Source of the DNA: Streptomyces alboniger
GTDB lineage: Bacteria > Actinomycetota > Actinomycetes > Streptomycetales > Streptomycetaceae
NCBI RefSeq assembly: GCF_008704395.1
Contig: NZ_CP023695.1
Location: 6,324,001 to 6,388,000, forward strand
DNA length: 64,000 nucleotides
Reading direction: 5' to 3'
The translations under genes were made by a program, and so were the position numbers. Below, piece after piece: positions 33,230 to 43,499 of the stretch. The notes beneath the pieces were generated by a model. That model was not told the origin of the DNA and made no database searches. It saw only the letters and a list, made by a program, of their open reading frames with translations. Within the stretch, counting starts at the first letter, position 1; the number at the start of each line of letters is the position of its first letter.

Positions 33230-34693
33230 ATGCGCGAAACGGACACACGCACGGGTAGCGGCCACGCCGTCGTCATCGGAGGCGGGATCGCCGGCCTTGC
33301 CGCCGCGCACCGCCTGCTCGCCACCGATCCGCGGACCCGCGTGACCGTCCTGGAGGCCTCCGACAGGCTCGGCGGCAAGCTGCGCGCCGGGGAGATCGCG
33401 GGGGTCCGCGTCGACCTCGGCGCCGAGTCGATGCTCGCCCGCCGCCCCGAGGCCGTCGCCCTCGCCCGCGAAACAGGTCTCGCCGACCGGCTCCGGTCGC
33501 CCGCCACCGCGACCGCCGCGATCTGGACCCGGGGCGCCCTGCGTCCCATGCCCAAGGGGCACGTCATGGGCGTGCCCGGTGCCGCCTCCGCCCTCTACGG
33601 GGTCCTCTCCGACGAGGGCCTGCGCCGCATCGAGCGCGACCGCGAACTGCCCCGCACCGAGATCGGCGACGATGTCGCCGTCGGCGAGTACGTCGCCGCG
33701 CGCCTGGGCCGCGAGGTCGTCGACCGCCTCGTGGAGCCCCTGCTCGGCGGGGTGTACGCCGGGGACGCCTACCGCATCTCGATGCGCTCGGCCGTCCCGC
33801 AGCTCTTCGAGGCCGCCCGCACGCACGCCTCCCTCACGGACGGCGTCCGTGACATCCAGGCCCGCGCCGCGCGGAACCAGCAGACCGGCCCGGTCTTCAT
33901 GGGCATCGAGGGCGGCGTCGGTCGGCTGCCGCTCGCCGTCGCGGAGTCGGTACGCGCGCGTGGCGCACGAATCCTGACCGACACACCCGTCACAGAGCTG
34001 CGGCGCGCCGGTGACCGCTGGCGCGTGGTCACCGCGAGCGAGGTGTACGAAGCCGACGCCGTCGTCCTGGCCCTGCCCGCGCCCGCCGCCGCGAAGCTCC
34101 TGGACGCCGAGTCGCCCGCCGCGGCCGCCGAGCTGCGCGGCGTCGAGTACGCCTCCATGGCGCTGATCACGCTCGCGTACAGGCGCGCCGAGACCGACCT
34201 CCCCGAAGGCAGCGGTTTCCTCGTGCCGCCCGTGGACGGACGCACCATCAAGGCGTCCACCTTCGCTAGCCGCAAATGGGGCTGGATCGACCGGCAGGAC
34301 CCGGACCTGCTGGTCCTGCGCACGTCGGTGGGCCGGTACGGGGAGACGGAGATCCTCGGCCGCGACGACGCCGACCTCATCGCCCTCTCCCGCCACGACC
34401 TGCGCGAGGCCACCGGTCTCACCGCCACCCCCGTCGCCTCCCGCGTCACCCGCTGGGACGACGGCCTGCCGCAGTACCCCGTCGGCCACCACGCGCGCGT
34501 GGCCCGCGTCCGCGCGCACGTCGCCGCGCTGCCCGGTCTCGCGGTCTGCGGAGCCGCGTACGACGGCGTGGGCATCCCCGCGTGCGTCGCGAGCGCCAAC
34601 GCGGCCGTCGACCAGCTGGCGGGGGACCTCGCCGGTGTGGAGCAGCTCACCCGCGACCCGGTGCGGAGTCCGCGCGGCGGCGGAGGAGAATAG
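33230..34693 (+). CDS. cgoX: Coproporphyrinogen III oxidase (HemY/CgoX type)
   Basis: 487 residues, FAD-dependent. The dinucleotide site is [17 protein letters not shown] (about 13-29), followed by [19 protein letters not shown], and the C-terminal flavin motif is [20 protein letters not shown]. In Actinobacteria the enzyme oxidises coproporphyrinogen III to coproporphyrin III in the coproporphyrin-dependent haem route; older annotation calls it hemG or hemY protoporphyrinogen oxidase. ATG 33230 follows GAGAGTGGAG. The haem decarboxylase gene starts 4 bp after its stop, so they form an operon. Confidence 0.93.
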
Positions 34694-34697
34694 CCGC

Positions 34698-35417
34698 ATG
34701 AGTGACGACGCCCCCGCCAAGACCCCGAACGCCGGCAAGAAGGCCAAGGACCTCAACGAGGTCATCCGCTACACCCTGTGGTCGGTCTTCAAGCTGCGTG
34801 ACGTGCTGCCCGAGGACCGCGCCGGTTACGCCGACGAGGTCCAGGAGCTGTTCGACCAGCTCGCCGCCAAGGACATCACGATCCGCGGCACCTACGACGT
34901 CTCCGGCCTGCGCGCCGACGCCGACGTCATGATCTGGTGGCACGCCGAGACCGCCGACGAGCTTCAGGAGGCCTACAACCTCTTCCGGCGCACCAAGCTG
35001 GGCCGCGCCCTGGAGCCGGTCTGGTCGAACATGGCGCTGCACCGCCCCGCCGAGTTCAACAAGTCGCACATCCCGGCGTTCCTGGCCGACGAGACGCCGC
35101 GCGACTACGTCTCGGTCTACCCCTTCGTGCGCTCCTACGACTGGTACCTGCTGCCCGACGAGGACCGCCGCCGCATGCTCGCCGACCACGGCAAGATGGC
35201 CCGCGGCTACCCCGACGTGCGCGCCAACACCGTCGCCTCGTTCTCCCTCGGCGACTACGAGTGGCTGCTCGCCTTCGAGGCCGACGAGCTGTACCGCATC
35301 GTCGACCTCATGCGTCACCTGCGCGCCTCCGAGGCCCGGATGCACGTACGCGAAGAGGTGCCGTTCTACACCGGCCGCCGCAAGTCCGTCGCGGACCTCG
35401 TGGCGGGCCTGGCGTAA
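34698..35417 (+). CDS. chdC: Coproheme decarboxylase (HemQ/ChdC, chlorite-dismutase family)
   Basis: 239 residues. Converts coproheme to haem b, the last step of the coproporphyrin-dependent pathway. The family core [18 protein letters not shown], then [17 protein letters not shown] with the proximal His near residue 164, and [15 protein letters not shown] are present. A short Lys-rich N terminus precedes the domain. ATG 34698 has GGAGGAG at 34682-34688, inside the end of cgoX. The ferrochelatase that acts between the two enzymes is not in this window. Confidence 0.94.
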
Positions 35418-35441: not shown

Positions 35442-37055
35442 TCAGAGCGCCCTGGGCCGTTCCGCCGCCCGCTCGGCGGAGTCCGGCCGGGGCTCCTGGT
35501 GCGGTGCGCACGCCGCGCGCCGCCCCGGGAGCCTGCCCTCCAGGAGGTACGCCTCCAGGTGTCCGTTGACGCACTGGTTCGCGCCGCCGCCGATGCCGTG
35601 GGTGCCGGCCTCCCGCTCGGTGACCAGGACCGAACCGCGCAGCCTGCGGTGCAGCTCGCGCGCCCCCTCGTAGGGCGTGGCCGCGTCGCGCTCGGCGGCG
35701 AGGATCAGCGTCGGGGCCAGCTCGTCGTCGTCCGCGCGCACGTCGAGCGGCTGCTGCCGGGGCGCGGACCAGTAGGCGCACGGCAGGTTCATCCAGGCGT
35801 TGTCCCAGGTCTCGAAGGGCGCTACGCGCGCGAGGAGCGTGTTGTCGCGGTCCCAGGTGGCGAAGTCCGTCGGCCACGGGGCGTCGTTGCACTCCACGGC
35901 CGTGTAGACGGCGTTGCCGTTCTCCTGTTCGACCGCCGCGCGCGGCTCGGGCGCGGCCTGCTCGATCAGCGGCTTCGGGTCGCCCTTCAGATACGCGGAG
36001 AGCGCTTTGGCGCGCATCGGCCAGTAGTCGTCGTAGTACCCGGCCTGGAGGTACGCGGACTGGAGCTGGCTCTGGCCGACCTTTCCGCCTGCGGGCTTGC
36101 GGCCCAGTTCGGCGCGCACCTTCTCGTAGTTGCGCAGGACCTCCTCCGGCGTCCTGCCCAGGTGGTACGTCTTGTCGTGCTTGGCCACCCAGGCGCGGAA
36201 GTCCGCCCAGCGCCGCTCGAAGGCCGCCGACTGGTCGAGGTTGTTGCGGTACCAGATCTGCGCCGGGGCGGGGTTGACCGCCGAGTCGAAGACCATGCGG
36301 CGCACGTGCGTCGGGAAGAGCGTCGCGTAGACGGCCCCGAAGTAGGTGCCGTACGAGGCCCCCATGAACGTCAGCTTCTTCTCGCCGAGCGCGGCCCGCA
36401 GCACGTCCAGGTCGCGCGCGTTGTTCAGGGTCGTGTAGTGCCGCAGGCCGGGGTTGCGGGCGGCGCACCCGCGCGCGTACGCCTGCGCCTTCGCGACGCG
36501 CTCCCGCTTGTACGCCTCGTCGGGGTGGGTCGGCGCCTGCGTGGGGGCCTTGCCGAACTCCTTGGGGTCCTGGCAGGACAGCGGCGCCGAGCGGCCCACA
36601 CCGCGCGGGGCGTAGCCGATCAGGTCGTACGCGGCCGCGATGCGCTTCCACTCGGGCATGACGCCCGCCATCGGGAAGTACATGCCGGAGCCGCCGGGTC
36701 CGCCGGGGTTGAAGACGAGCGCACCCTGGCGCGCGACGGCCCGGCCCGCGGCCTTCCCCTTCGCCTTCGCCTTCGCCTTGGCGCGGCTGACGGTCAGTTT
36801 GATCTGCTCGCCATGAGGGTGGGCGTAGTCCAGCGGTACGGAGACCGTGCCGCATTGGAGGGAGGGGGGAAGGTGCTCGGCCTTGGCGCAGGTGCCCCAG
36901 CGGATCCCGGCGGCCTCGGCGCGCTGCGCGGCGACGGAGGTGCCGTGCGTCTCGGGGGTGGGCAGGGTGGCGCTCGCGCTTCCCGCGGGGGCGGCGACGA
37001 GGGCGGTCAGGACCAGGGATCCGGCGGTTCCATAGCGGGCGGCTGCTGCTCTCAT
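35442..37055 (-). CDS. Secreted alpha/beta-hydrolase, tripeptidyl aminopeptidase family
   Basis: 537 residues with a Sec-type signal peptide (about 1-29, ending SASA). The fold of Streptomyces Tap/SlpD-type exopeptidases is clear: oxyanion segment NPGGPGGSG (116-124), nucleophile Ser234 in GASYG, and the C-terminal TAP-like domain with catalytic Asp near LILAAERDAATPY and His in EAGTHGIGGG. It releases short peptides from protein N termini outside the cell. An odd Lys-Ala stretch RAKAKAKAKGKAAGR (91-105) sits in a loop and is encoded by 6-bp DNA repeats. Upstream is an inverted repeat that may be an operator. Confidence 0.88.
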   Translation of the reverse strand: MRAAAARYGTAGSLVLTALVAAPAGSASATLPTPETHGTSVAAQRAEAAGIRWGTCAKAEHLPPSLQCGTVSVPLDYAHPHGEQIKLTVSRAKAKAKAKGKAAGRAVARQGALVFNPGGPGGSGMYFPMAGVMPEWKRIAAAYDLIGYAPRGVGRSAPLSCQDPKEFGKAPTQAPTHPDEAYKRERVAKAQAYARGCAARNPGLRHYTTLNNARDLDVLRAALGEKKLTFMGASYGTYFGAVYATLFPTHVRRMVFDSAVNPAPAQIWYRNNLDQSAAFERRWADFRAWVAKHDKTYHLGRTPEEVLRNYEKVRAELGRKPAGGKVGQSQLQSAYLQAGYYDDYWPMRAKALSAYLKGDPKPLIEQAAPEPRAAVEQENGNAVYTAVECNDAPWPTDFATWDRDNTLLARVAPFETWDNAWMNLPCAYWSAPRQQPLDVRADDDELAPTLILAAERDAATPYEGARELHRRLRGSVLVTEREAGTHGIGGGANQCVNGHLEAYLLEGRLPGRRAACAPHQEPRPDSAERAAERPRAL

Positions 37056-37164: not shown

Positions 37165-37938
37165 TCAATGCCCCCCGTGCGCGGCCTCCCGCCGCCCCCG
37201 GCCGGAGAAGGCCTCCCGCAGTTCCGGGTCGGCGACCGCGCGGACCCCGCGCACGGCCACCGCGGTCAGCTGGTCGCCCCGCGTGCACAGCGCGCCCAGG
37301 AGCCGCTGACCGGCGGGGGACGCCCACCGCGTGTACGGATGGACCTCGACGCGGGCGATCACCAGGCAGCCCGCGCACAGGAGCAGCGGCAGCCCGAACC
37401 AGACCGCGACCGGCACCTGCCCTGGGGCCTCGCGCCCCTGTGCCGGCATGAGGACCGCCACGGCGCCGAGCGCGAGCACCGCCACCGTCGCCGCCCGCAC
37501 CTGGCGCACGGCGGCTGCGACCCCCGAGGCGGAGCCCGCCGGGACGGCGAGCCCCGCGGTGACGAGCCCGTCCGCGAGCGCCCGCACGGCCTCGGTGGCC
37601 GCTGCCCCACGGCGTATCGGGGCTATCCGTGCCTGGCCCGCCGGACCGATCGCACCGAGCACGGAGCGCTCCATGTCGTCGCGGCCCACCGGATCGACGA
37701 CGGTCGCCCACCCCGTGTGTGCGATCAGCAGCCGGCGCGCCCGCGCCATCGCCACGAGTGTGACGTCGGCGACGCGGGTGGGGCCACCGGAGAGGAACGC
37801 GGCCTCGTAGAGGTTGAGTTCGTGACCGGGCGGCGCCGCCCTCTCCTGGGTGGCGGCACGGCTCGCGGCCAGGCAGAGGCGGCCGCAGGCGAGGCCGGTG
37901 AGGGCCCAGGCGAGGAGGAGCAGCGGAACCCAGAACAT
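37165..37938 (-). CDS. TIGR04222-domain membrane protein without Cys-rich tail
   Basis: 257 residues, last gene of the MNIO-associated operon. It has an N-terminal membrane helix (about 2-25), the TIGR04222 core ELNLYEAAFLSGGPTRVADV (about 40-60) and two further hydrophobic helices around 145-165 and 175-195. Compared with the paralogue at 38937-40055 it shares the AAFLSGGP(T/A)R core and helix layout but ends at GRREAAHGGH, lacking the Cys/Gly/Ser tail. The function is unknown; it may be a structural partner of the tailed protein. It lies 39 bp after the second DUF4142 gene. Confidence 0.75.
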   Translation of the reverse strand: MFWVPLLLLAWALTGLACGRLCLAASRAATQERAAPPGHELNLYEAAFLSGGPTRVADVTLVAMARARRLLIAHTGWATVVDPVGRDDMERSVLGAIGPAGQARIAPIRRGAAATEAVRALADGLVTAGLAVPAGSASGVAAAVRQVRAATVAVLALGAVAVLMPAQGREAPGQVPVAVWFGLPLLLCAGCLVIARVEVHPYTRWASPAGQRLLGALCTRGDQLTAVAVRGVRAVADPELREAFSGRGRREAAHGGH

Positions 37939-37977
37939 GACGGTGTTCTATGCGAAGGCACCGCTCGGCGCCACGGC

Positions 37978-38817
37978 TTATTCACTATGCGGACGCGGGG
38001 TGACGGGTGGGTAACGTTCCGCTTGTGGCCGGGCGTTCGGCCTGTCTGGATACGGCCTCTCCGGATCAGACCCCTCCGGTTTCGGGCGGGACGCGGCGGG
38101 CGGCAGCGTGTATGTCGGTGACGGGGTGACCGGCGTGGCCGGGTCCGGGGACGTGGTCGGGCCCGGGGGCGCGGGGGAGCGGGTCAGGGGCGGCGGCCCC
38201 GCGGTGGCCGCCTCGCGGGCTATGCCCTCGAAGTCGACGAGGCCGGTGTCCTCCAGAACCGTGATGTGGTCGAGGACGGTGGTGTTCGCGTCGTCGGCGA
38301 GCGTCCGCACCAGCGCGTTGCGGGTGTTCGCGCGGACCTCCGCGACCACGGAGAAGACCTTGCCGTGCGCGCGGCGCAGAATGTTCGCGAACTTCTGGTT
38401 GTACGTCTCACCGCGCGCGCGGCTCAACTCGGCGAGCCAGCGCCGCTGCTGGGGGTTCGGCTGGCTGGGCAGTTCCAGGCCGAGCCGGGTGGCGACTTCG
38501 CGTACGCGCGCGTCCAGGAACGTATGGCCCTCGACGAGGTGCTCGCCCGCGGTCCGCACCGCCTTGGTCGTGCCGCGCGCCTCGGCCTGCTGGCCGGCGG
38601 GCAGCTCCCACAGGCCCGCGAGGCGGACCTTGGTGATGAAGTCCCGGTCCAGGGCGGACAGTGGCCCGAAGTCGGTCGACACCGTCTCGGCGTTGAGCCT
38701 GTCGAGGCCGGTGCCCGAGCGGTCCTCGTAGGACCAGAGGGGGAAGAGCAGAGCGGCCAGGGTCGCGACGAGTCCCGTGACGACGAGGCCGGTTCCGTTG
38801 ATGGCTGGGGATCGCAT
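37978..38817 (-). CDS. DUF4142 helical exported protein 2
   Basis: 279 residues. A membrane or signal helix (about 8-27) leads to the conserved FPLWSYEDRSGTG, then a DUF4142 ferritin-like four-helix domain (about 50-200) with DRDFITKVRLAGLWELPAGQ, HLVEGHTFLDARVREVA and LDHITVLEDTGLVDFEGIA. A Pro-rich tail (about 205-279), probably disordered, follows. DUF4142 proteins are usually extracytoplasmic; the function is unknown. AGGAGGC lies 5 bp before ATG 38817. It is clearly paralogous to the protein at 41791-42558, including the membrane-proximal motif. Confidence 0.8.
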   Translation of the reverse strand: MRSPAINGTGLVVTGLVATLAALLFPLWSYEDRSGTGLDRLNAETVSTDFGPLSALDRDFITKVRLAGLWELPAGQQAEARGTTKAVRTAGEHLVEGHTFLDARVREVATRLGLELPSQPNPQQRRWLAELSRARGETYNQKFANILRRAHGKVFSVVAEVRANTRNALVRTLADDANTTVLDHITVLEDTGLVDFEGIAREAATAGPPPLTRSPAPPGPTTSPDPATPVTPSPTYTLPPAASRPKPEGSDPERPYPDRPNARPQAERYPPVTPRPHSE

Positions 38818-38936
38818 GGTGCCTCCTGTTGCGGCACCGCACGTTAGTGCGCCTCGGGCGTGGGGCGGCGGGTTATGGCGGGGGGTACGTCAACTGCCGT
38901 ACGCCTGAAGCGAAGTGGCGTCCTTGGTGGGTGCCG

Positions 38937-40055
38937 TCAGGTGGAGGAGGACGAGCTGCTGCAACTGGACCCGCCCCCTCCGCCCCCTCCGCCGGAACAG
39001 GAGGACCCACCGCCACCGCCGCCGCTGGAGCAGGCCGAGCCACTGGAGCAGGCCGAGCCGCCGCTTCCGCCGCTGGAGCAGCACGAGCCGCCTCCGCCTC
39101 CGGAGCAGGCCGAGCCACCGCCTCCGCCTCCGGAACAGACCGCCCCGCCGACCCCGCCTCCGGAACAGACCGCCCCGCCCCCGGAACCGGAGCTGCCCGA
39201 GCACGCGAAGCCGTGGTGCCCGCTCCAGGCGTTGGGGCCCGGGAAGGGAGCCAGGTGTGGGCCTGACGGAACCGGCACCCGACCCCGGACGCGGGCCGCG
39301 GTGATCAGCTGGGCCCGCAGATCGGGGTGGGCCGCCGCCAGGCCGCGGGTCGCCACGAGGTGCGCGGCGCCCGCGAGATGGCGTGACGAGGCGACGTACT
39401 CGTCGAGGGCGCGGCGCCCGGCCGAGGTGAGCTGTTTCTCGGTGACCGAGAGGCAGCTCAGGGCGACCGCGAAACCGACGATGCCCGCGGGGACCATGTG
39501 GAGGACGGCGTCGAGCGTCCGGTCGGCACCGCCGGGCACCACGGGGTCGTCCGCGTACTGCGCCAAGGTCAGCATGGAGGCCGCCAGGAATCCGAAGAGG
39601 CTCGCGAAGAGCTGTGCCCCGGCCCAGCGCCGCCATGTCTGCCGCGGCCCCGGCCGCATGAGGAGGCCGCGCGCCGCGAGCGCGTCGCCCGTCTCCCGTA
39701 CCGGGCCGCTTCGCATCACGGCGGCCCGCAGCCAGTGCAGCGAGGCGTTGGGCGCCGCGCGGTGGGCGTCGACGACCGCCTGCTCGGCGGCGTTCCTGGC
39801 CGTCGGCCGGGGGATGCCGACGACGCCGGGCCCGGCCACGACCAGGCGACCGTCCTCGTGCAGGCCCGCGATCAGCGCGTCGGCCAGCCGGGCGGGGCCG
39901 CCGGAGAGGAACGCGGCCTCCGGTGTGCCGCGTACGAAGTCGCCGTGGTCGTCGCCGGTGGGCATCTGGGCGCGCCCGGCCGCCACCACGCCCCTGATCA
40001 GCGCGGCGGAGGAGACCACGACGAGGATCGTGTAGATCATGCCCGCGATGCTCAC
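38937..40055 (-). CDS. TIGR04222 membrane protein with Cys/Gly/Ser-rich C-terminal tail
   Basis: 372 residues. N-terminal helix (5-24), TIGR04222 core GTPEAAFLSGGPARLADALI (43-62), then two membrane helices (about 145-166 and 184-204). From residue 275 the sequence is almost only Gly, Ser, Ala and Cys, with Cys at 285, 297, 307, 317, 325, 326, 336, 342, 353 and 365, mostly in [AS]-[VAS]-C-S-[GS] contexts about 10 residues apart. The GTG start follows the MNIO stop by 4 bp, so the two are translationally linked. By family knowledge of MNIO enzymes the tail is a candidate modification substrate; that is inference. A structural, metal-binding or disulfide-bonded tail without modification is the alternative. 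Confidence 0.82.
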   Translation of the reverse strand: MSIAGMIYTILVVVSSAALIRGVVAAGRAQMPTGDDHGDFVRGTPEAAFLSGGPARLADALIAGLHEDGRLVVAGPGVVGIPRPTARNAAEQAVVDAHRAAPNASLHWLRAAVMRSGPVRETGDALAARGLLMRPGPRQTWRRWAGAQLFASLFGFLAASMLTLAQYADDPVVPGGADRTLDAVLHMVPAGIVGFAVALSCLSVTEKQLTSAGRRALDEYVASSRHLAGAAHLVATRGLAAAHPDLRAQLITAARVRGRVPVPSGPHLAPFPGPNAWSGHHGFACSGSSGSGGGAVCSGGGVGGAVCSGGGGGGSACSGGGGGSCCSSGGSGGSACSSGSACSSGGGGGGSSCSGGGGGGGGSSCSSSSSST

Positions 40056-40059
40056 CGCG

Positions 40060-41682
40060 TCACCGCCCCGACAGGATGCGGCGGGTGGCCTTGAGCAGCC
40101 TGGCGGCGGGCCGCCGGGAGAGCGGCGCGGGGCCCGAGCGCTCCAGCCACCAGTCGCTCAGCCGCCGTCCGGCGTCGGTGCCTTCGAGCCGCCCGGCGAG
40201 CAGCAGGTGCTCGGCGAACCTCAGCGCGTCGAGGCGGTAGCCGCCCGTCATGGGCCGGGCGTGGGCGTAGGCGAGGAAGTCGGCGCGGTACGCCCCGCCG
40301 AGGATGTCCGGCAGCTCGGGCGCGACCTTCGCGACGACATCGGCCCGCTTGGCGGCCAGCGCGTGGCTCTGCACCTTCAGCCGCGCGCGGTCGAATCCTT
40401 CGGGGGCCGGGGTCCCCGCGACGAGCGCGGAGAGCAGGGCGGCCTGCGCGAGGGCGCTGCGCTGCCGGGCTTCGGCGGGCGCGGGAAGGTCCCCCGGGGG
40501 CGCGGGGAGGTCTTCGCGTGGTGCGTCGGGAAGGTCTTGGTGTGGCGCGGTGAGGGAGGCCTCGTGCGGCACGTCGGAGAATCCCTCGCGCGGAGTGCGC
40601 GGAGTGCGCGGACTGCTGGGGTTGCCCCCGGGCGCTGCGCCAGAGAGGTGGTCCTCACGCGGCCCGCCTGGGAGACTTCCGCGCTGCCCGTCTGGGAGTT
40701 CCCCGCGCCGCCCGCCCAGGAGTTCCCCGTGCTGCTCGTCTGGGAGTTCTCCGCGCCGCCCACCCGGAAGGCCCTCGTGCGATCCGCCCGGGAGGCCTCC
40801 ACCGGCCCCCTTGGGGAGGCCCCCGCCCGCCTTCGTGCCAAGGTCCCCGGCCAGTTTGCCCGTCGTCTCCACCGTGGCCCTTATCGTGGCCAGCTCCCGC
40901 TCCAGCTCGGCCGGTTCGGGGAAGTTGTCGTCGCGCTCCAGGAGGACGCCCGGTGGGGTCGTCCGGGAGGCGAGGTCGGTCAGGATCGCGAGGACCGGTT
41001 CCGGTACGGGGTGCGCGTGGCTGTCGTGCCAGACTCCGTCCCGTTCGAAGCCGCCCGCCACATGGACGTACGCGATGGCCTCGACCGGCAGCTCGTCCAG
41101 GGCCTTGGCCGGGTCCTCGCCGCGGTTGACGTGGTTCGTGTGGAGGTTGGCGACGTCGATGAGCAGACGTACGCCCGTGCGCTCGACCAGCTCGTACAGG
41201 AACTGGCCCTCCGTCATCTCCTCACCGGGCCAGGAGATCAGCGCCGCGATGTTCTCCACGGCGAGCGGCACGGGCAGCGCGTCCTGCGCGATGCGGACGT
41301 TCTCGCAGAGCACGGCGAGCGCGTCACGGGTGCGCGGCACCGGCAGCAGATGACCGGCTTCGAGGAGCTGCGTCGCGGTGAGGTCGCCGCCCGCGCGCAC
41401 GAACGCGATGTGCTCGGTGACCAGCGGCGAGCCGAGCGCCAGCGCCCGCTCGGCGAGCGCGGTCAGCCGGCCCTCGTCGGGGCGGTCGGCGCCGCCGAGG
41501 CCCAGGGAGACGCCGTGCGGCACGACGGTCACGCCGCGCTCGCGCAGCCGCAGCAGGGAGTCGGGCAGATGGCCCGGACAGACGTTCTCCGCGACCGCCT
41601 CGACCCAGTCGATGCCGGGCATCGCCTCCACGGCGTCCGCGATCTCCGGACGCCAGCCGATGCCGGTCCCCAGACGCCGCAT
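40060..41682 (-). CDS. DUF692/MNIO multinuclear iron oxidase with repeat linker and C-terminal partner-like domain
   Basis: 540 residues. Residues 1-265 are the DUF692 TIM barrel with the expected metal ligands: His56 ([10 protein letters not shown]), Glu90-His91, Glu143-Asn144 (LAVENIAAL), Asp176/Asn179/His181 ([10 protein letters not shown]), His207, Asp220/His222 (WHDSHAHP) and Glu249-Asp251. Characterised relatives (MbnB, TglH) oxidatively modify peptide cysteines using two or three irons. Residues 285-340 are 8-residue repeats such as GELPDGQR and GELLGGRR. Residues 405-540 form a helical domain ([29 protein letters not shown]) that may act as the separate partner or recognition protein of other MNIO systems. 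ATG 41682 has GGGGGAG upstream. Confidence 0.88.
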
Positions 41683-41790
41683 GTCGCTCCCCCTTCACCC
41701 CTCGTCCCCCGAACCGGTCCCCCCGATCCCCGTCCCCGGGTCCTTCACCGGGGCGGGGTCGGCCGAACCCTCAGGGAGGGACGTTCAGAG

Positions 41791-42558
41791 CTACATTTGA
41801 GGTTCCGGCCGTCCGGTGTTGATCTGGCCCGGCGGGCCGGGCGAGGGCCGGGACGTGGTGGAGATGTCGCCGCTGGGCCGGGCGGGCACGGGCTCCGGGG
41901 GAGTGCCCCCGGACGGCGGGGGAGGCCCGGAAGGGCTGGCGGTCGCGTTCGACGCGGCGTCGTTCGCGATTCCGTCGAAGTCGACGAGGCCGGTGGCCTC
42001 CAGCATCGTGATGTGGTCGAGGACGGTCTGGTTGGCGTCCGTGGCGAGCTGCCGGATCAGGGAGTTGCGGGTGGTGTCGCGCACCTGGGCGACCACGCTG
42101 AACACCTTGCCGTGCGCGACCCGCAGCAGGTTCGCGAACTTGCGCTGGTACGTCTCGCCGCTCGCCTCCGTCAACTCCTTCAGCCAGCCCTGCTGTTGCT
42201 CGGTGGGCTGATTGGGCAACTCCACGCCCAGTTTCGCGGCGGTGGTGCGGGCCCGCTGGTCGAGGTCGGTGTGGCCGACGATGAGGTGGTCGCCCGCCTC
42301 CTTGATGGCCTCGGTCGGCGCGCGCTCCACGGCCTGTTGCCCGGCCGGTATCTCCCAGAGCCCGGCGAGCCGCACCTTCACCAGCAGATCCCGGTCGGCC
42401 GCCGAGAGAGGCCCCCACTGGGTGGACACGGACCCGGCGGCCAGATTGGCGGGCCCCGTGCCGGAGCGGTCGGCGTACGACCACATGGGGAACGCGAGCG
42501 CGCCGAGCGTGGCGACGAGTGCCGCGATGATCAGAGCCGTGCCGTTGACGCGCCGCAA
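41791..42558 (-). CDS. DUF4142 helical exported protein 1
   Basis: 255 residues, first gene of the MNIO operon. Membrane or signal helix (about 7-25), then FPMWSYADRSGTG, a DUF4142 domain (about 50-200: DRDLLVKVRLAGLWEIPAGQ, HLIVGHTDLDQRARTTAA, LDHITMLEATGLVDFDGIA) and a Pro/Ser-rich tail. About half of the residues are identical to the second copy at 37978-38817. It starts at TTG 42558 with GGGAGG upstream. The interval to the preceding peptidyl-tRNA hydrolase (144 bp) may hold the operon promoter: minus-strand TTGAAC at 42629-42624 is a possible -35. Confidence 0.8.
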   Translation of the reverse strand: MRRVNGTALIIAALVATLGALAFPMWSYADRSGTGPANLAAGSVSTQWGPLSAADRDLLVKVRLAGLWEIPAGQQAVERAPTEAIKEAGDHLIVGHTDLDQRARTTAAKLGVELPNQPTEQQQGWLKELTEASGETYQRKFANLLRVAHGKVFSVVAQVRDTTRNSLIRQLATDANQTVLDHITMLEATGLVDFDGIANDAASNATASPSGPPPPSGGTPPEPVPARPSGDISTTSRPSPGPPGQINTGRPEPQM

Positions 42559-42702: not shown

Positions 42703-43434
42703 TCACGGGCGGGGCGCGCGCAGGGCCGGGTGGTCGGCGACCACCGTGCAGGACCCCGGGGCGATCTCGGTGAAGCCCGCGTCGCGGACCACCGGCAGGC
42801 CACTGGAGGTGAGTTCGCGCCAGAGGGCGGCATCGGGGGTGCGGACGGAGAGCGGGAACCCGGCGTCGCGCCAGGCCGTGCGGTCCTCCGCCGACAGCTC
42901 CCACCAGGCCAGTTGGGCACCGTGGCCCGCCTGCGCCATCGCCTTGCCCGCCGACATGTCGACGTCGGGGCTCATCCACAGGACGGGGTGGGTCGGGTCG
43001 GCCCCGGCCGGCGGCTCGGGATCGTCCAGGTCCGTGCCCGACACCTGGAGCCGCGCCAGATCCTTCGGCCAGCCGTCCAGCGGAACCGGCGGGAAGACGC
43101 GGACCTCCGCCGACTTGCCGGTGACCGTGATGCCGGGCAGCGCCTCGGCCCTTCGCCACTCGGCACCCCGCGCCCGGCGCACCACCTTGCGGATGCGGGC
43201 GTCCTGCCAGTCGCGCATCGCCCTCGCCCACTCGCCCTCGCCCAGGGAACGCTCGTCGCTCAGCATCACCAGGACGGCACGGGCCGCGGTCTCCAGCGCG
43301 TCGGTGCGGGCCGGGGGAGCGGCGCGCTCGATGCGGGCGACGAGGGGCAGTACGAACTGCGGGGCCTCGTCGCGCGAGGCGGTCTCGTGCCGGAAGGGGC
43401 TGTCCTGGGCGGTGGTGGTGTTCTCGTCGCTCAC
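42703..43434 (-). CDS. PTH2-family peptidyl-tRNA hydrolase domain protein
   Basis: 243 residues. The C-terminal half carries the Pth2 pattern: VDMSAGKAMAQAGHGAQLAW (about 160-180, matching the GK..AQ..H core) and LPVVRDAGFTEIAPGSCTVV near the end. PTH2 enzymes release peptides from peptidyl-tRNA and are typical of archaea and eukaryotes; Streptomyces carry this longer form beside the usual Pth. The N-terminal 130 residues are helical and unassigned. The start is GTG 43434; the longer frame runs into the divergent ABC gene. It is probably a separate unit from the MNIO operon downstream. Confidence 0.75.
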   Translation of the reverse strand: MSDENTTTAQDSPFRHETASRDEAPQFVLPLVARIERAAPPARTDALETAARAVLVMLSDERSLGEGEWARAMRDWQDARIRKVVRRARGAEWRRAEALPGITVTGKSAEVRVFPPVPLDGWPKDLARLQVSGTDLDDPEPPAGADPTHPVLWMSPDVDMSAGKAMAQAGHGAQLAWWELSAEDRTAWRDAGFPLSVRTPDAALWRELTSSGLPVVRDAGFTEIAPGSCTVVADHPALRAPRP

Positions 43435-43499
43435 GCGTCCAGTCTGCCAGTGCGCCGGTTCGCAGGTCCGCCGGGCTTCCGGAGGGGGCGTACGCGAGG

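Follow-up and report, generated by a model that had tools for sequence, protein, structure and literature searches.

We analysed a window of 64,000 nucleotides from the genome of Streptomyces alboniger (7.96 Mb, a single contig; NZ_CP023695.1, positions 6,324,001 to 6,388,000), and in particular five co-directional genes on its minus strand. In order, these encode a DUF4142 protein, an MNIO (DUF692) enzyme, a TIGR04222 membrane protein with a C-terminal tail rich in glycine, serine, and cysteine, another DUF4142 protein, and a TIGR04222 protein that lacks the tail. We find that this MNIO has a C-terminal domain that weakly resembles, in structural models, the partner proteins TglI and MbnC, and that a domain of this kind, either fused or separate, accompanies every tail-bearing MNIO locus that we examined (36 of 36). 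The tail is predicted to lie in the cytosol, on the same side of the membrane as the enzyme. The association of MNIO with the tail is real but was previously published (Antoine et al. 2025; PMC12452194), and the first-pass interpretation of the locus, which is partly supported, was largely anticipated there. The main text of that paper describes MNIO-TIGR04222 clusters, mostly from Actinomycetota, with Gly/Ser/Cys C-termini, and already proposes that the MNIO modifies subsets of these C-termini. We assign the enzyme family, the conserved ligand residues, the partner-like domain, the co-occurrence, the membrane anchor, and the predicted side of the membrane by comparison. The features of the locus are:

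41791..42558, minus strand: DUF4142 protein, 255 aa, with a predicted N-terminal membrane anchor, no Cys, and a TTG start (PF13628, E 3.6e-19; the two DUF4142 proteins score 69.8 and 70.6 bits, cut-off 27)
40060..41682, minus strand: MNIO (DUF692) protein, 540 aa, with the partner-like domain fused at its C terminus (PF05114, MbnB_TglH_ChrH, E 9.6e-77)
40873..41667, minus strand: MNIO catalytic TIM-barrel domain, residues 6-270 (PF05114 match and conserved residues)
40138..40476, minus strand: C-terminal helical partner-like domain, PF26136, residues ~403-515 (alignment with standalone genes adjoining MNIO; fold match to TglI and MbnC)
38937..40055, minus strand: TIGR04222 membrane protein with tail, 372 aa (TIGR04222, 111.3 bits, cut-off 43)
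38940..39203, minus strand: C-terminal Gly/Ser/Cys tail, 10 Cys, predicted cytosolic (Cys count and charge analysis)
37978..38817, minus strand: second DUF4142 protein, 279 aa (PF13628, E 2e-19)
37165..37938, minus strand: TIGR04222 membrane protein without tail, with CxxxC in its first helix (132.6 bits, cut-off 43)

The gene order, the shared strand, the span, and the 4-bp gap between the MNIO and the tailed gene had all been described in a first-pass annotation of this DNA, and both the open reading frames and the profile matches bear them out. (From the coordinates, the four intergenic gaps are 108, 4, 119, and 39 bp.) What that annotation overlooked is that the 540-aa MNIO continues through a low-complexity linker of about 130 aa into a second conserved domain.

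The window MNIO clearly belongs to PF05114 (258.2 bits, cut-off 25). Its best NCBIfam model is MNIO_BufB, yet the score of 177.1 bits is below the curated cut-off of 310. By analogy with MbnB and TglH, we take eight residues to be candidate metal ligands: H56, H91, E143, D176, H207, D220, H222, and E249. These candidate ligands are identical at 80 of 80 named Streptomyces loci (the top 80 among the 398 genome loci at which the window MNIO has a relative, all named Streptomyces) and in 49 or 50 of the 50 MNIOs in the main cluster of our class survey (the rest are gaps).

The second domain is of the PF26136 type, which in other actinobacteria is a separate gene beside the MNIO. Such standalone genes lie within 2.5 kb downstream of the MNIO at 24 of 60 loci. 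Among the 22 Streptomyces loci with the window's type of MNIO, the domain is fused in 21 and a separate gene in one (G409; we number genomes as in our surveys). A model of the full-length fused protein was too weak to show how the domains dock (mean predicted local distance difference test, or pLDDT, of 65.8, with a disordered linker). Because the Foldseek and VIA-align matches for the whole model were filled by TIM barrels, we folded the partner-like domain alone. This model has a pLDDT of 87.6, and its best structural matches, although weak, are TglI and MbnC; NGO1945 (3dee) was not among the matches listed. A search of PDB sequences with the alignment of the partner domain found no match. 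We consider the domain to be a putative partner.

Antoine et al. report that a PME-type 2 partner is encoded in at least 10% of their clusters and that many clusters seem to have none, and the main text leaves open whether or how partner-less MNIOs work on TIGR04222 proteins. The standalone partner-like genes adjoin the MNIO and lack a DUF2063 signature, as a PME-type 2 partner does. Specifically, all six copies that we scanned had neither a Pfam match nor a DUF2063 signature (PF26136 is apparently absent from that Pfam library). Similarly, we found no DUF2063 match in the six window genes scanned or in the isolated C-terminal domain of the MNIO. If the partner-like domain is either fused or adjacent, then the gap concerning the partner closes, and a one-gene enzyme with a short tail could be tested in E. 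coli. The main text of Antoine et al. mentions neither an MNIO-partner fusion nor DUF4142. Neither the fusion nor our other new points turned up in a full-text literature search, whose scope excluded supplements and some papers and preprints. So, relative to the published survey, a fused or separate partner-like domain that is present with every tail in the sample is apparently new.

The evidence that the tail belongs with the MNIO comes from a survey of 246 genomes of Actinomycetes, which we adopted because a phylum-wide survey gave TIGR04222 above the cut-off in only 8 of 197 genomes. In the class survey, TIGR04222 was above the cut-off in at least 69 genomes and MNIO in 58. (In each genome, the TIGR04222 surveys scored the top 11-13 candidates from a first look, so these counts are lower bounds.) We left out 2 of 69 MNIO rows and three second fragments of TIGR04222 proteins. 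Of the 67 remaining MNIO places, 60 have a match of at least 600 bases and a locus, and these entered the locus counts. The other seven are G349:C4 and six places with matches shorter than 600 bases; of the seven, only G225 (one of the short ones) has a locus. A TIGR04222 match lies within 8 kb of an MNIO match, which we call near, in 49 of 91 cases, and always on the same strand. A protein was scored as tailed if its last 45 residues included at least 3 Cys and were at least half Gly, Ser, or Cys. Of the 91 matches, 90 have a locus. (G247, slightly below the cut-off, was kept but has none.) These comprise 32 tailed near an MNIO, 6 tailed and far, 18 untailed and near, and 34 untailed and far (Fisher p 4e-6, ignoring relatedness). 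Co-occurrence no better than chance had been named in the first-pass annotation as the result that would speak against its proposal, and the survey came out in favour of a link.

Outside Streptomyces, where the link is well supported, the corresponding counts are 24, 6, 3, and 27 (p 6e-8, again ignoring relatedness); within Streptomyces they are 8, 0, 15, and 7. As for the six tailed proteins far from an MNIO, the genomes of four have an MNIO at another place, G341 looks false, and G252 comes from a genome with no MNIO detected and lies close to the end of a contig. A few individual calls need comment: G366 was scored as near by hand because of a contig break, masked letters probably led to a false tail call in G341, and G424:C141 is probably a missed tail.

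The window tail has 10 Cys within the last ~90 residues. In 102 tailed relatives, out of 108 found (Streptomyces tailed TIGR04222, P0148-P0254), the tails vary in length and have 5-11 Cys each. All but one of the 102 (101) have a Trp-Cys motif at the start of the tail. The window tail does not have this motif, as its W and C stand apart. At five loci, the Cys tail is carried by a short one-helix membrane protein instead of TIGR04222. (Four of these are loci of one family, from Frankiaceae, with Pseudofrankia and Frankia matches; the fifth is G251.) It appears that the tail moves between different membrane carriers, and the one-helix carrier is apparently new. We also noticed several TIGR04222 proteins far from any MNIO in the class survey with Gly/Ser-rich ends that have no Cys; the genome of the window itself encodes one of them (G000:C1:7810214).

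Hydropathy predicts three helices in the tailed TIGR04222 protein of the window, at about residues 2-20, 147-165, and 184-202, and most TIGR04222 proteins likewise have three. Positive charge flanks their inner loop and their C-terminal side. The mean number of lysines plus arginines is 0.04 ahead of helix 1 and 2.75 behind it; helix 2 is preceded by 3.18 and helix 3 is followed by 3.57, and the loop that joins these two helices has 0.61. (The windows are 15 residues each, except for 6 residues before helix 1; the short outer loop averages 7 residues.) Of the 28 tailed proteins that could be counted, 26 are richer in these residues on the inside when scored per residue (p 7e-6), and all 28 are by raw counts; we left out 7 tailed proteins without exactly three helices. 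In the one-helix carriers, 6-7 positive residues follow the helix and 0-1 precede it. By the positive-inside rule, we therefore predict that the tail is cytosolic, on the side of the enzyme. This prediction, which disagrees with the published periplasmic one, is apparently new. If so, what was seen as an exported metal sponge would become a sponge at the inner face, and a membrane protein would be modified by an enzyme of ribosomal peptide natural products (RiPPs) without being released.

The tail looks ancestral in Streptomyces but is often missing, whereas the MNIO persists with its ligand residues intact. We built a tree of 57 MNIO rows, with 31 of the 80 named loci. All of the earliest Streptomyces branches in it have a tail, and most members of a large derived group (40 rows) have none; within this group, the window and three of its relatives are tailed. 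The fewest tail changes is 3, on a quick tree in which 24 of 54 inner branches are weakly supported. Just downstream of the MNIO in 14 Streptomyces genomes, we found no gene for a Gly/Ser/Cys tail among the frames with at least 3 Cys. Most gaps adjoining the MNIO are shorter than 200 bp, but they range up to 670 bp, so there is room for a small gene in places. A Ser-Cys spacing pattern, searched for in 22 genomes, recovered only 2 of 8 known tails and so is uninformative about tails elsewhere. This absence of the tail from much of Streptomyces is apparently new. (For comparison, Antoine et al. report that more than a quarter of TIGR04222 proteins have no C-proximal Cys.) The one odd frame among those examined downstream of the MNIO is a short repeat with Cys at the contig end of L094 (G366:C27); it may be a repeat or an assembly fault.

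What does the enzyme do? We are evenly balanced over the reading that an MNIO with a fused partner acts in the cytosol on a membrane-held Cys tail to give an unreleased product that binds metal or buffers thiols. The MNIO would be an iron-dependent oxidase with its own partner domain, which would take the role of the separate partners of MbnB (MbnC) and TglH (TglI). It would act on the Cys of a tail that the TIGR04222 helices, or just one helix in some relatives, keep at the inner membrane face. We infer the modification of the tail, its ring chemistry, and the metal: the tethered product would probably bind copper or another soft metal, or else buffer thiols. Copper enters only by analogy to the bufferins. 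A more detailed version of this reading is tentative: the one-chain enzyme might oxidise about 10 Cys on a cytosolic tail that is neither cleaved nor exported, giving an inner-face brush that is a fixed metal or redox buffer; the tail might hop between unrelated anchors and have been swapped for another substrate in part of Streptomyces.

Several observations weigh against the cytosolic-tail reading. Only 8 of 22 Streptomyces loci are tailed and 14 are not (these 14 include G366, where the contig ends within the locus), and a tail was scored in only 7 of the 80 named close relatives, although several of these loci are truncated. Some TIGR04222 members have a weak fourth helix by hydropathy, which is the main doubt about a cytosolic tail, and Antoine et al. 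consider a periplasmic placement likely. Because 14 of the 22 loci show no tailed gene, the tail is not the sole reason for keeping the MNIO in Streptomyces, and the proposal that the Cys tail is its sole substrate is weakened by the tail-less loci with intact ligand residues. The first-pass annotation had taken the tail to be the substrate; the link to the MNIO upholds this in part, but a tail-only account is too simple. In the many tail-less Streptomyces, the MNIO would have to serve another substrate, which, in a soil genus as common as this one, points to a second substrate.

This leads to the somewhat unlikely alternative that the main substrate in Streptomyces is the untailed TIGR04222 protein, or non-Cys residues of DUF4142, or a protein encoded elsewhere, and that the tail is secondary or ancestral. 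Besides the rarity of tails and the intact ligands at 80 of 80 loci, the untailed protein has a CxxxC in its first membrane helix (residues 18-22; window 37873-37887), which is kept in 56 of 63 short-tail TIGR04222 matches of the named loci (3 of the 63 are cut or broken tailed genes), and some MNIOs act on Asp, Asn, or Phe (PMC12452194). But the untailed protein is missing from the MNIO loci of G023 and G182, DUF4142 is missing from those of G172, G285, G295, G313, and G322, and outside Streptomyces the tail is the MNIO's commonest associate. It is less likely still that the tail is an unmodified Cys-rich sink for metals or thiols, and that the MNIO adjoins it through a shared stress response and acts elsewhere. 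This would fit with the induction of SCO6045 from S. coelicolor, which rose 3.01-fold under H2O2 in the wild type (PMC4991794, Table 1); genes for Cys biosynthesis head the induced set, and no gene rose in the strain without hsr genes. (SCO6045 is a putative orthologue of the window MNIO, going only by the name of its C-terminal domain family.) The induction is also compatible with a role in thiol or redox stress. However, the tail co-occurs only with the partner-bearing type of MNIO and follows the MNIO onto a different carrier. Finally, a single step separates Cys codons from those for Ser and Gly, and the same rule finds tails on the opposite strand at 7 of 60 loci, so the tail could in principle be meaningless low-complexity sequence of a high-GC genome. 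We consider this very improbable and already disfavoured: tails on the same strand are found at 38 of 60 loci, all 102 tailed relatives have 5-11 Cys, and nearly all have the WC motif.

Compared to known systems, the window is closest to the clusters of Antoine et al., whose Table 2 lists 'adjamnio-II - MNIO - TIGR04222' with a peptidyl-tRNA-hydrolase-like adjamnio-II, which is the window's layout. Both have the same family of MNIO, a tailed TIGR04222, a peptidyl-tRNA-hydrolase-like gene upstream, and the same hypothesis for the tail; window-type loci differ in that every tailed one examined has the partner-like domain and in that their tail is predicted to be cytosolic. With MbnBC (methanobactin) and TglHI (pearlin), the window shares the MNIO TIM barrel with its conserved ligand residues, and the modelled helical partner-like domain resembles MbnC and the N-terminal part of TglI. 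Here, however, the partner is fused in one chain, and the putative substrate is a membrane protein instead of a small peptide. As in the bufferins (BufA/BufB/BufC), whose MNIO_BufB model is the best NCBIfam match of the window MNIO, the putative substrate bears Cys; unlike them, the window MNIO scores below the BufB cut-off, has no DUF2063 partner, and would act on a multi-helix membrane protein. In addition, a 2016 paper (PMC5183585) mentions a putative bacteriocin cluster from Pseudonocardia that includes a TIGR04222 peptide.

DUF4142 was proposed in the first-pass annotation to be a partner that acts outside the membrane. Its N-terminal anchor does suggest that the protein sits outside the cell, but a role as a core partner is ruled out, as there is no DUF4142 near the MNIO at 37 of 37 loci from outside Streptomyces, compared to 14 of 23 Streptomyces loci with one. 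(The profile was built from Streptomyces members; when we rechecked with the Pfam model, the nearest match outside Streptomyces was over 11 kb from an MNIO.) This Streptomyces-limited association is apparently new. In the second DUF4142 protein, four His are invariant across 13 of 13 aligned relatives. Because the tail and DUF4142 are distributed differently across loci, we view the window as holding two sets, an MNIO-tail pair and a pair of DUF4142 with untailed TIGR04222.

The genes around these five are:

42703..43653, minus strand: PTH2-like (peptidyl-tRNA hydrolase) gene, upstream, a usual neighbour in Streptomyces (PF01981, E 1.4e-8)
35442..37055, minus strand: alpha/beta-hydrolase / TAP-like protein, downstream, a conserved neighbour in Streptomyces (PF08386, E 5.3e-26; cluster in 18 mapped loci)
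33230-35417, plus strand: protoporphyrinogen-oxidase-like gene and HemQ-type heme synthase, beyond the alpha/beta-hydrolase

The protoporphyrinogen-oxidase-like cluster recurs in 16 mapped loci; these neighbours might indicate a link to iron or heme, or they might reflect mere position. Other types of MNIO also appeared among the mapped loci. Two of them, L057 and L058 (G409:C22 and G390:C1), have a different type that scores about 367 bits against PF05114, with no Cys tail; a pair of genes downstream (clusters 44 and 45) is particular to this type and common to both loci. L113 and L114 (G424:C142 and G303:C216) represent a further subtype, in which the two loci have a block of neighbours in common (clusters 74-79), and this subtype has neither a tail nor a PF26136-like domain. 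At L157, from Streptomyces sp. TRM68367, the MNIO is inverted relative to its usual neighbours, which is either a real inversion or an assembly fault.
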